DNA of 13,218 nucleotides from Pseudonocardiales bacterium (lineage in GTDB: Bacteria; Actinomycetota; Actinomycetes; Mycobacteriales; Jatrophihabitantaceae), in assembly GCA_030840415.1 (NCBI GenBank), contig JAVEEO010000095.1, positions 1-13,218 on the forward strand. The letters run 5' to 3'. The notes under the pieces are model-generated. The model had not been told where the DNA came from. It made no database searches and saw only the letters and a program-made list of their open reading frames with translations. Shown here in pieces: positions 5,091 through 8,416 of this stretch. Made by a program: the position numbers and the translations under genes. The first letter of the stretch is position 1; every line of letters starts with the position of its first letter.

Positions 5091-6233
5091 ATGAGGATCG
5101 CGCACGTCACCGACTGCTACCTGCCCCGGATGGGTGGCATCGAACGCCAGGTGCACGGCCTGGCCACCGCCCAGCTGGCGGCCGGGCACCAGGTGACGGT
5201 GATCACCTCGGTGCTCGAGGCCGCCGAGCCGTCCCCCGCGCAGCCGGACGGCCTGACGGTGCTCCGGCCCGGCGGTCCGGCGGCGCAGCCGGGTTCGATC
5301 CGCTACCTGAGCAGCCTGCGCGGCCGGCAGGCAGGCCAGGGCTACGACCTGGTGCACATCCATGCCTCCACCTTCTCGCCGTTGGCCTACCTGGCGGCCG
5401 GGGCGGCCAGCAGGGCGGCGGTGCCGACGGTGGCGACCCTGCACTCGCTGTGGTCCTACGCCACGCCGATCTTCCGCGGCTTCGACGCCGCGCTGGGCTG
5501 GCGGCGCTGGCCGATCGCCTGGACCGCGGTGAGCACCGTGGCGGCCGGGTCGCTGGCACGGGTGCTGCGGCCGGGCACCGAGATCTCGGTGCTGCCCAAC
5601 GGCGTCTCGCCCGGGCTCTGGCAGTCGCCGCCGCGGCCGCGCGACCCCCGGCGGGTCGAGATCGTCAGCGTGATGCGGCTGGCTGCCCGCAAGCGGCCGA
5701 TGCAGCTGCTGCGGGTGCTGCGGGCGGTCCGGTCGCAGGTACCGGACGAGATCGACCTGCGGGTGCAGCTCATCGGCGACGGCCCGCAGCGCGACAGCAT
5801 GCTGGCCTACCTGCGCCGGCACTCGATGACCGACTGGGTGCGGCTGACCGGCCAGCTGGACCAGCCGGCGATCCGGGACCGGTTCGCCGGTGCCGACCTC
5901 TACGTCTCGCCGGCCACCCTGGAATCCTTCGGCATCGCCGCCCTGGAGGCGAGCTGTGCGGGGCTGCCGGTACTGGCCTACGCCGGCACCGGCGTCTCGG
6001 ACTTCATCGCCGACAGCCGTAACGGCGTGCTGGTGCGCAGCGACGACCAGTTGGCCGCCGAGCTCGTCCGGCTGGCCTGCTCGCCGGCGGCTCGCGCCGA
6101 ACTGGCCGGCCACCCGCAGGCCGGCTCGGACTACCACTGGGACCAGGTGCTGGCCACCTGCGAGCAGGTCTACCGACGCGCCTTCGCACAGTGGGGCAGG
6201 CCGGTGCCGGTCGAGGCCACCCCGGCGCTCTGA
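5091..6233 (+). CDS. GT4-family retaining glycosyltransferase
   Basis: The 380-residue protein is a two-Rossmann-domain (GT-B) glycosyltransferase of family 4. It transfers a sugar from a nucleotide- or lipid-linked donor, probably at the cytoplasmic face. The N-terminal acceptor domain begins MRIAHVTDCYLPRMGGIERQ with the conserved glycine pair at 15-16 and has VHIHAS at 88-93. The C-terminal donor domain shows SVMRLAARKRP (193-203, with the donor-phosphate-binding R and K), LIGDGPQR (227-234) and the EX7E motif ESFGIAALE (278-286). There is no signal peptide or membrane helix. The ATG matches the family start, although no Shine-Dalgarno sequence precedes it. The stop lies 5 bp before the PIG-L deacetylase gene, so the two are almost certainly co-transcribed. 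This pairing recalls MshA/MshB of mycothiol synthesis, but many GT4/PIG-L pairs act on other glycans, and I do not assign a substrate. Confidence 0.92.
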   Translation: MRIAHVTDCYLPRMGGIERQVHGLATAQLAAGHQVTVITSVLEAAEPSPAQPDGLTVLRPGGPAAQPGSIRYLSSLRGRQAGQGYDLVHIHASTFSPLAYLAAGAASRAAVPTVATLHSLWSYATPIFRGFDAALGWRRWPIAWTAVSTVAAGSLARVLRPGTEISVLPNGVSPGLWQSPPRPRDPRRVEIVSVMRLAARKRPMQLLRVLRAVRSQVPDEIDLRVQLIGDGPQRDSMLAYLRRHSMTDWVRLTGQLDQPAIRDRFAGADLYVSPATLESFGIAALEASCAGLPVLAYAGTGVSDFIADSRNGVLVRSDDQLAAELVRLACSPAARAELAGHPQAGSDYHWDQVLATCEQVYRRAFAQWGRPVPVEATPAL

Positions 6234-6238
6234 CGCCC

Positions 6239-7057
6239 GTGAGCTTCTGCCTGGTCTCCTTCCACGCCCATCCGGACGACGAGGCGCTGCTGACCGCCGG
6301 CACCCTGGCCCGGGCGGCCGCCGAGGGCCACCGGGTGGTGCTGGTGGTCGCCACCCGGGGTGAGGCCGGCCTCAGCGACGTCGGGCCGGGCAGCGCGCTG
6401 GGCGACCGGCGCGCCGACGAGCTGGACCGGTCGGCCGCCGCGCTGGGGTGTGCCCGGGTGATCCGGCTGGACTACCCGGACTCGGGCATGCACAACGAGC
6501 ACCGGGGCTTCGCCTCGATGCCGGTCGAGGAACCCGCCGAGCGGCTGGCCGAGATCCTGCGCGCCGAGCGGGCCGACGCGCTGACGGTCTATGACCGCAA
6601 CGGCGGCTACGGCCACCCCGATCACGTCCAGGTGCACCGGGTCGGGCACCGGGCCGCGCAACTGGCCGGCACCCCGCTGGTGCTGGAGGCAACCGTGGAC
6701 CGCACCGCCCTGCTGCGGGCGCTGTCGCCGGTGCGCCGGCTGCTGCCACCGGACTTCGCCCCGGACCGGCTGCGGCACAGCTACACCGACCGGGCCGCGA
6801 TCACGCACCGCATCGACGTCCGGGCCTTCACCGGTGCCAAGCGCCGGTCGATGGCCGCGCACGCCAGCCAGGCCACCGGCGGTGACCGCCGCACCCTGGC
6901 GCTGTTCCTGAAACTGCCAGGTCCCTTGTACCGCAGGGTATTCGGCACCGAATGGTTCGTCGAAGCCGGCCGGGAGCCGAACCGGCCGCCGCTGTCGGAC
7001 CTGTTCGCCAGCCTGCGGCCGGGGCCGGCCGGACCGTCCGGAGATTCTTCGGAATAG
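6239..7057 (+). CDS. PIG-L/LmbE family zinc-dependent deacetylase
   Basis: This 272-residue protein belongs to the family that removes N-acetyl groups from GlcNAc-containing substrates or cleaves related amides (MshB, Mca, GlcNAc-PI deacetylase). The N-terminal motif FHAHPDDE (8-15) supplies the metal-binding His and Asp and the catalytic Asp. The second motif GYGHPDHVQVH (123-133) gives the third metal-binding His. TRGEAGLSD (39-47) and the acidic patch YDRNGG (118-123) are also typical. I take the GTG at 6239, 5 bp after the glycosyltransferase stop, because the protein then starts directly in its first beta strand. An in-frame GTG at 6191 would overlap the upstream gene and add unlikely residues. 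It has no obvious ribosome site and is probably read by translational coupling. It likely deacetylates the product, or a precursor, of the adjacent glycosyltransferase (inference). Confidence 0.92.
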   Translation: MSFCLVSFHAHPDDEALLTAGTLARAAAEGHRVVLVVATRGEAGLSDVGPGSALGDRRADELDRSAAALGCARVIRLDYPDSGMHNEHRGFASMPVEEPAERLAEILRAERADALTVYDRNGGYGHPDHVQVHRVGHRAAQLAGTPLVLEATVDRTALLRALSPVRRLLPPDFAPDRLRHSYTDRAAITHRIDVRAFTGAKRRSMAAHASQATGGDRRTLALFLKLPGPLYRRVFGTEWFVEAGREPNRPPLSDLFASLRPGPAGPSGDSSE

Positions 7058-7061
7058 GGTC

Positions 7062-7089
7062 TTGACAGCTGGCGAATGCTACGTAGAGT
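7062..7089 (+). promoter_or_regulatory. Strong housekeeping-type promoter in a convergent gap
   Basis: A TTGACA -35 box (7062-7067), a 16-bp spacer and a TAGAGT -10 box (7084-7089) match the consensus of actinobacterial HrdB/SigA promoters, in which the -10 is commonly TAGRRT. It begins 5 bp past the PIG-L stop codon and points into a 91-bp gap that ends at the stop of a convergent gene. It therefore cannot be the promoter of any recognised protein gene. Expected transcription start is about 7095-7097. Confidence 0.65.
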
Positions 7090-7095
7090 AACCGA

Positions 7096-7152
7096 CGAAA
7101 GCCGCTAAACCTTCGTGTCTCCCCCGTGGCAGGAATGGCGTAGCGGCTTTCG
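7096..7152 (+). ncRNA. Candidate small hairpin RNA with C-rich apical loop
   Basis: Directly downstream of the promoter at 7062-7089 is a perfect 12-bp inverted repeat: CGAAAGCCGCTA (7096-7107) and TAGCGGCTTTCG (7141-7152). The inner 33 bases also pair: CC-TTC (7110-7114) with GAA-T-GG (7133-7138), and TGTC (7116-7119) with GGCA (7128-7131). This leaves the apical loop TCCCCCGT (7120-7127). The RNA would begin at or next to the base of this helix and be one long, nearly continuous hairpin of about 57 bases. The 3' arm is followed by CTTTGCCC, a weak U-run, so the element may also be its own terminator and stop read-through from PIG-L. Alternatives are a plain bidirectional terminator for the two convergent genes or a leader of an antisense transcript. 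The C-rich loop resembles that of the actinobacterial 6C RNA, but only one five-C run is seen. Confidence 0.5.
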
Positions 7153-7180
7153 CTTTGCCCGGACACCACTGGATCGGCAG

Positions 7181-8344
7181 CTACAGGCCCGGGTCCGGTT
7201 CCATTCCCAGCAGCGCGCGGCCGGCCATCTCATAGCCCACCGCGCTGATCCCGTAGTGCTGGGTGGCGGTGTTGACGTCGCGCAGCACCCGCTGCAGCGG
7301 ATGGCTACGGGGCAGCGCGGTGGTGCCGGCGCCGCGGTAGCACAGCTGCACCGCCTCGGCGGCCCCGGCGGTGGCGTGCACCGCCGCCAGCCGGGCCTGG
7401 GCACGCTGTCGCACGCTCGGCACCGCACCGGCCGCTCCGGCGTCCCAGAGCGCCTGCATGCTCAGTTGCAGGAGGTGGTGGCCGGCCTCGACCAGCGCGG
7501 TGGCCCGGGCCAGGTCGGCCTGCAGCACCTCACGCTCGGCCAGCAGCCGGCCGGACCGGAACGGGGTCTTGGTCACCGCCAGCGCGGCGAGCTCGCCGAT
7601 CGCCCGCCGGGCCAGGCCCAACGGCACCGCGGCCAGCACCGGAAAGATCAGCGACATCAGCGGAATCCGCCACATCGGCCCGGTCGGCCACGGGCTGATG
7701 CGTTCCAGGGCGATGCTGTGCTCGACGGGCACCCGGACCCCGGCGGTCCGGTAGTCCACGCTGGCGGTGCCCCGCAGGCCGAGGGCGTCCCAGCTGTCGT
7801 CGACGAACTCCAGTTCGGCAGCCGGCATCACCACCGCCCGGACCAGCGGCGGCCCGCCGGCCGCCGGGTTCGCCAGCATCGCGCCGCCGACCACCCAGTC
7901 GCAGTGCTGCACGCCGCTGCCGAAGGACCACCGGCCCTGCACCAGGTACGAACCGTCCGGCTGCGGGGTGGCCCGGCCACCGGGCATCAGGGCACCACCG
8001 GCCAGCTCCGAGCCGGTCGGGTAGAGCTGACGGGCACCGTCCTCGGCGACGAAGCCGCCGACGCTGTTGCTGGCCATCCCGGTGGCCGCGCACCAGCCCG
8101 TCGAGCCGTCGGCCTCGGCCAGCGTCTCCAGAACCCGCAGCACGACCGGGGGCTCGGCCTCCAGGCCGCCGAGCTCGCGCGGCATCCAGAGCCGGAACAC
8201 CCCGGCCCGGTGCAGGGCGGCGACCACATCGACGGGCAGCCGGCCGGCGCGTTCGATCTCGAGGCCGCGCGCGGGCAGCTGCTCGGCGAGATCGGTGACC
8301 GCGGCCATCACCGCGTCGGCCTGCGGGACTACGGCACTGCTCAC
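7181..8344 (-). CDS. Acyl-CoA dehydrogenase/HsaA-type flavin oxidoreductase
   Basis: The 387-residue protein has the acyl-CoA dehydrogenase fold. The order is an N-terminal helical domain (about 10-110, with RAGVFRLWMPRELGG at 46-60), a middle beta domain (about 110-215, with LVQGRWSFGSGVQHCDW at 134-150 and LGLRGTASVDY at 188-198) and a C-terminal helical bundle. The C-terminal pattern, ending LPRSHPLQRVLRDVNTATQH (344-363), is that of the Acyl-CoA_dh_2 subgroup. That subgroup includes reduced-flavin monooxygenases such as HsaA and DszC as well as dehydrogenases. It may thus be either an oxygen-using hydroxylase or a dehydrogenase; no dedicated flavin reductase gene is nearby. I chose the GTG at 8344, with AGGTG 9 bases upstream, over a GTG at 8380 whose ribosome site touches the start codon. 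It lies 72 bp downstream of the flippase-like gene, in the same direction. Substrate is unknown. Confidence 0.85.
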   Translation of the reverse strand: MSSAVVPQADAVMAAVTDLAEQLPARGLEIERAGRLPVDVVAALHRAGVFRLWMPRELGGLEAEPPVVLRVLETLAEADGSTGWCAATGMASNSVGGFVAEDGARQLYPTGSELAGGALMPGGRATPQPDGSYLVQGRWSFGSGVQHCDWVVGGAMLANPAAGGPPLVRAVVMPAAELEFVDDSWDALGLRGTASVDYRTAGVRVPVEHSIALERISPWPTGPMWRIPLMSLIFPVLAAVPLGLARRAIGELAALAVTKTPFRSGRLLAEREVLQADLARATALVEAGHHLLQLSMQALWDAGAAGAVPSVRQRAQARLAAVHATAGAAEAVQLCYRGAGTTALPRSHPLQRVLRDVNTATQHYGISAVGYEMAGRALLGMEPDPGL

Positions 8345-8416
8345 GGCGTTGCACACCTCAGGTCTCGACGCTGGCCGCACCCTCTGGACGTGGCCCCGGC
8401 GATTCGAAGATAGCGT

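Follow-up and report, generated by a model that had tools for sequence, protein, structure and literature searches.

The promoter and hairpin in the convergent gap

The DNA analysed here, hereafter the window, is the whole 13,218-nucleotide stretch of a contig from a Pseudonocardiales bacterium, and the element of interest lies in a gap of 123 bases between a PIG-L/MshB-like gene and an acyl-CoA-dehydrogenase-like gene, which converge on it. A glycosyltransferase frame (5091-6233) overlaps the PIG-L frame (6191-7057) by 43 bases as called, and the true start of the PIG-L gene is likely to be internal to its called frame; the pair resembles enzymes of mycothiol or bacillithiol synthesis, with scores under the curated cut-offs. 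The features are given below with the evidence for each, where G002 and G003 are genomes of the same genus, G006 is a third genome of that genus, f15 is another family of the order, and R1-R3 are the covariance models with which relatives were found.

6191..7057, + strand: upstream neighbour, PIG-L family deacetylase, MshB-like (best NCBIfam match under its cut-off)
7062..7067, + strand: -35 box TTGACA (direct reading and promoter scan; invariant in G002 and G003)
7084..7089, + strand: -10 box TAGAGT after a 16-nt spacer (promoter scan; unchanged in G002 and G003; three G006 copies have TAGCGT)
7095..7158, + strand: predicted small RNA, hairpin and short tail (span of models R1-R3; fold; 62/64 and 63/64 bases kept)
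7096..7107, + strand: outer stem, 5' arm (fold; double changes at 7 of 12 outer pairs among 16 sequences)
7110..7119, + strand: middle and inner stems, 5' side (fold; double changes at 8 of 9 pairs)
7120..7127, + strand: octaloop UCCCCCGU, proposed seed (fold; YCCCCCGU in 16 of 16 aligned sequences)
7128..7138, + strand: inner and middle stems, 3' side (fold)
7141..7152, + strand: outer stem, 3' arm (fold)
7153..7158, + strand: tail CTTTGC, proposed weak terminator end (same CTTTGC in G006 copy L044)
7181..8380, - strand, 3' end at 7181: convergent neighbour, acyl-CoA dehydrogenase / flavin monooxygenase-like (not adjoining the RNA in G002 and G003)

Direct reading of the sequence places a -35 box, TTGACA, at 7062-7067 and, after a spacer of 16 nt, a -10 box, TAGAGT, at 7084-7089. 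The first-pass annotation had called this the best promoter of the window, and a promoter scan of the whole window bears this out: only two sites were returned, of which this one matches 10 of 12 positions and the other 9 of 12, compared with a mean of 0.2 sites in 50 shuffles of the window. Six bases separate the -10 box from the hairpin, putting the predicted start at about 7096, the first base of a perfect outer stem of 12 bp (arms 7096-7107 and 7141-7152), as had been noted at the outset. The additional pairing that had been proposed inside the stem, around a C-rich loop, is likewise seen in the predicted fold, in which further helices within the outer stem lead to an apical octaloop at 7120-7127 (UCCCCCGU; TCCCCCGT on direct reading of the sequence). 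The hairpin proper measures 57 nt (7096-7152), and the fold of 7095-7165 has a predicted energy of -33.4 kcal/mol (z -4.2), a stability equalled by none of 200 shuffles. A protein-coding frame running across the hairpin was rejected, as the similarity between relatives, judged by eye, stops beyond the hairpin.

Conservation of the RNA and its promoter

The element is found at the same place in two of eight same-genus genomes, G002 and G003, where 62/64 and 63/64 of the RNA bases, respectively, and all six bases of both promoter boxes are kept. By comparison, the aligned third codon positions of PIG-L, counted at positions below 7000, are kept at 192/257 (G002) and 192/254 (G003), about 75%, and the 22 bases directly 3' of the RNA at 6/22 and 14/22. 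These sequence comparisons indicate that promoter and RNA are under selection as one unit. The convergent neighbour does not share this constancy: in G002 (L022 2304-2494) the dehydrogenase gene was not found beside the RNA and the next long frame is a convergent, flippase-like one, while in G003 (L023 2295-2609) a short stretch resembles the end of the dehydrogenase gene and the convergent neighbour is again flippase-like. The RNA is thus independent of the dehydrogenase gene, which adjoins it in neither genome. Five further same-genus genomes with PIG-L carry no similar sequence just past that gene. Models R1 and R2 gave no match at E <= 1 in G001, G004, G005, G007 or G008, and R3 gave weak matches only (best E 0.015), the one plausible match among these five genomes being that in G005 (L099, E 0.05), for which no promoter was found and which overlaps the end of a long high-GC3 frame on the opposite strand (rough call).

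The first-pass annotation had proposed a covariance search of related genomes for compensatory changes in the stem, and such changes were found. Model R1, built from the window, G002 and G003 sequences, was run against 24 genomes of the window's family (f1) and gave one further strong match, in G006 (E 2.6e-5), the remaining matches being opposite-strand echoes or having E >= 0.08. This copy (L044) lies at a different locus, and 7 of its 21 pairs are changed on both sides with pairing kept. Adding it to the model (R2) revealed six copies in G006, a genome that is 63% complete, and, when 397 genomes of the order were searched, 40 with matches at E <= 0.01: four of the window's genus, 34 of f15, spread over genera g26 and g66, and two of f14. 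The f15 figure counts matched genomes only; 25 of the 34 f15 matches were read at the level of the locus. One f14 match (L078) was rejected, being without the octaloop, and the other (G301) is outside the loci read. In f15 loci of both genera (L065 1631-3058 and L064 1915-3063) the RNA sits on the downstream side of a gene whose translation resembles, by eye, a protein O-mannosyltransferase, and the two converge.

An alignment was made of 16 sequences (the window, six from G006 and nine from f15, the last nearly identical to one another). Compensatory double changes occur at 15 of the 21 stem pairs, 93.1% of cells are paired, and the covariation score is 0.439, compared with 0.185 ± 0.017 in shuffled alignments and no more than 0.100 when the partners are slid. 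The octaloop reads YCCCCCGU in all 16 sequences, an invariance that is partly a product of the search, because the models reward the loop. Outside the models such a loop is seldom seated on a stem: in a G003 sample of 667,276 bases, taken on both strands, none of 16 YCCCCCGT sites reached a stem score of 4, and the same scoring gave ten family members 5 to 15. Comparison of these sequences indicates that an exposed C-rich loop on a conserved structure is present.

The promoters ahead of the relatives provide evidence independent of the covariance models, which contain none. A distance of 6-8 nt separates the end of a -10 box from the stem, and a -35 box stands 16-17 nt further upstream, in the window, G002 and G003, each promoter matching 10/12. 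Half of the six G006 copies have a promoter within this range of distances (scores 8, 8 and 7 of 12), and the other three (L044, L093 and L095) have no recognisable promoter by the same test. Nine f15 loci that were scored show a promoter of 6-7 of 12, again within this range, against a background, counted over the scored loci without removing the sites, of 0.96% of positions scoring >= 7 and 4.2% scoring >= 6; when read directly, all 25 f15 loci carry TTGTGY, a 17/18-nt spacer and TAnnnT. By these sequence matches an own promoter, within a narrow range of distances from the stem in most copies tested, is present in the window, in G002 and G003, in three of the six G006 copies and in 25/25 of the f15 loci read, and we infer transcription from it. 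The first-pass annotation held that its reading would fall if relatives kept just a generic hairpin, with neither promoter boxes nor a C-run; instead, structure and C-loop are kept, as are the boxes in most of those tested.

Six copies in a single genome that is 63% complete could also be taken to mean that the hairpin is a mobile or repeated element, of the REP or MITE kind, that has spread in G006. This we regard as scarcely credible. The G006 copies differ in their stems and yet still pair; by a rough call all six lie outside long high-GC3 frames, save that L092 touches one by 2 bases; and L065 and L064, from two genera of f15, have the RNA, by eye, beside the same kind of gene. Viral contigs held no exact match to either core, and plasmid searches returned none save one 26-base chance match. 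A dispersed repeat in G026 (L008 1501-1530 and further places) is similar to some 30 bases of the query and was set aside as another structure.

Several groups of matches were rejected or left out of the family count. Reverse-strand model matches at the same places are echoes of the palindrome, and L045-L049, L053-L055, L078, L082-L084, L096, L097, L101-L103, L107, L109, L110, L117, L118, L124, L126, L128, L131 and L133-L136 were taken for chance matches, showing by eye no octaloop on a stem. The count excludes the C-rich-loop candidates L098, L099 and L100 (f1) and L116, L130 and L132 (outside the order), of which L100 has a poor promoter (6/12, atypical -35 box) and the other five have none by the test used; it also excludes the f1 C-rich-loop candidates L104, L106 and L108, and L125 and L129 of f15, which have the same octaloop with promoter scores of 5 and 6 and atypical -35 boxes. 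On the class scale R2 matched 9 of 394 genomes, at most 13 candidates being scored per genome. On the phylum scale R3 proved too permissive in a first look: each genome gave thousands of candidates, 13 of them were scored, and 5 of 396 genomes matched, so that these matches are no measure of absence outside the order.

Termination and the relation to 6C

The position of the hairpin, 38 nt past the PIG-L stop, and its 12-bp stem might suggest that it is simply an intrinsic terminator, either serving PIG-L or ending both genes of the convergent pair, and that the promoter-like sequence upstream is there by chance; a match from the class-wide search (L130) does sit directly after an isocitrate-dehydrogenase-like frame in the fashion of a terminator. 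We consider this explanation improbable, on several grounds. The two promoter boxes do not vary among three genomes, all 25 f15 loci read retain promoter and loop, and a terminator has no need of a fixed octaloop. At L065 the neighbouring genes are divergent (upstream) and convergent (downstream), so that the hairpin there cannot terminate the upstream one; at L064 the one clear neighbour is the downstream, convergent gene. The T-run of the window copy is also weak: a terminator scan of the window found no T-run terminator-like site, and the sequence gives this copy only a weak terminator role because its tail is only CTTTGC. Elsewhere the stem is followed by TTTTTT (G006 copy L091) and, among the 25 f15 loci, by a run of at least five Ts in 10 and of at least four in 13. 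For the predicted RNA we infer that the hairpin probably helps to terminate its own transcript.

A C-rich loop on a stable hairpin in an actinobacterium calls to mind the 6C RNA, and the first-pass annotation had offered two possibilities, a reduced relative of 6C or an unrelated RNA using the same principle. At the gathering score Rfam gave no family in the window and none in 18 related loci, and at E values up to 10 the window gap gave three matches far under their cut-offs, 6C (RF01066) not among them. Within the same order 6C exceeds the Rfam cut-off in 25 of the 61 genomes searched (any match, 28/61, every one in a family other than the window's), and 6C copies of this order are built of two hairpins whose loops differ from the one here, as against the one hairpin of the window element. 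None of the 24 f1 genomes yielded 6C, with 64 candidates scored per genome, as might be expected if the new RNA were a 6C member that had been reduced or had moved. Three f15 genomes (G037, G049 and G058), however, have 6C and the new RNA at separate places on the same contig, 300-400 kb apart, and because they have both, the new RNA is not a reduced 6C. With neither the window nor the related loci matching the Rfam 6C model, descent from 6C is very improbable, and the second possibility, an unrelated RNA working on the same principle, fits better.

That principle has been described for mycobacterial B11/6C in excerpts of two reports, according to which the C-rich loop of a terminator hairpin pairs with G-tracts beside ribosome-binding sites (PMC12395582, PMC8628891). 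The likeness to 6C/B11 lies in a small RNA with C-tracts in hairpin loops; the difference lies in its two hairpins, its model of 75 positions and its other loops, where the new RNA has one hairpin and no Rfam match. Two groups of highly expressed intergenic Streptomyces small RNAs are also described as having C-rich terminal loops: scr5583/sar2652/svr5279, with 67% C, and scr1434/sar6912/svr1031, with a very stable stem-loop (PMC3765725). The C-rich terminal loop is the feature that scr5583 and scr1434 share with the new RNA, and these groups could be members of the same family. A parallel from another phylum is the LhrC RNA of Listeria, a multi-copy small RNA with C-rich pairing regions, which by description resembles the present case in having several sibling copies, as in G006. 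The literature searched, mainly open-access, contained no description of the YCCCCCGU one-hairpin motif.

Proposed action of the loop

The reading that we favour, on balance, is that the element belongs to a new family of free-standing, one-hairpin small-RNA genes that would act through the C-loop by pairing. The first-pass annotation had proposed a small RNA from the promoter and hairpin of the window; to this are now added the conserved structure, the C-loop and a promoter in most relatives tested, the support coming from sequence comparison. In the proposed scheme a housekeeping-type promoter would start transcription at the first base of the long hairpin, giving a product of about 57-65 nt of which the hairpin would be nearly the whole, and the stem would stabilize the RNA and probably help to end its own transcription. 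A start at the base of the stem leaves little single-stranded sequence except the loop, and for this reason the loop is the likely seed, if the RNA pairs at all. Held open in this way, the octaloop YCCCCCGU could pair with short runs of G, at the longest ACGGGGGR. The likeliest place for these is near the ribosome-binding sites of several mRNAs, and such pairing would lower the translation or stability of the target mRNA. Pairing with G-tracts beside ribosome sites is what would be expected by analogy with B11.

Target counts in the genomes are low. A perfect 11-nt complement of the loop region, the RNA itself excluded, occurs 0 times in G000, 0 in G003 and once in G002, and a backwards control is equally rare (1, 0 and 0). 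Of 306 roughly called starts, 9 have GGGGG upstream, compared with 3 of 306 interior windows, and for ACGGGGG the two figures are 0 and 0; in both counts the starts were chosen by SD score and are hence biased.

The main rival to a pairing seed is a protein-binding loop, in which case a stable one-hairpin RNA would present YCCCCCGU to a protein, as a decoy or as a component of an RNP, and not to an mRNA. Protein binding would also explain a fixed eight-base loop that includes the non-C bases GU in 16/16 sequences; the G003 sample has few G-tract targets, and perfect 11-nt targets are nearly absent. Against it stands B11, the best-studied comparable RNA that we met, which acts, in the excerpts cited above, by pairing of a C-rich loop. 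We judge a protein-binding role unlikely, while giving it real weight.

Returning to the pairing reading, we put at about even the chance of the fuller description, namely that this is an undescribed actinobacterial small-RNA family in which the whole RNA would be one terminator-like hairpin starting at +1, with the octaloop YCCCCCGU as its best-conserved sequence, with at least six siblings in one lineage that share the seed and differ in their stems, and separate from 6C, beside which it would occur in another family. Little of the small-RNA regulation of GC-rich actinobacteria has been mapped, and in the literature searched the case of C-loop pairing that has been worked out is 6C/B11. Another RNA family of simpler structure, which two bacterial families keep together with its promoter and which one lineage has multiplied, would provide a clean system for asking how an eight-base C-loop finds its targets in a GC-rich genome. 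It would also raise the question of whether a terminator-like hairpin alone suffices as a regulator and, if the reading is true, the RNA would be a minimal, loop-only one.

Two further hairpins were seen in the course of the searches. In family f18, L130 (1501-1553) has a hairpin with a CUCCCCCGUG loop directly 3' of the isocitrate-dehydrogenase-like frame, named by eye, which may be a terminator or a 3'-end small RNA. In two g66 genomes (L125 1501-1555 and L129 1501-1547, both on the - strand) a second, different hairpin carries the UCCCCCGU octaloop and a T-rich end; the upstream regions of the two are similar to each other, and this hairpin is possibly a second paralogue.
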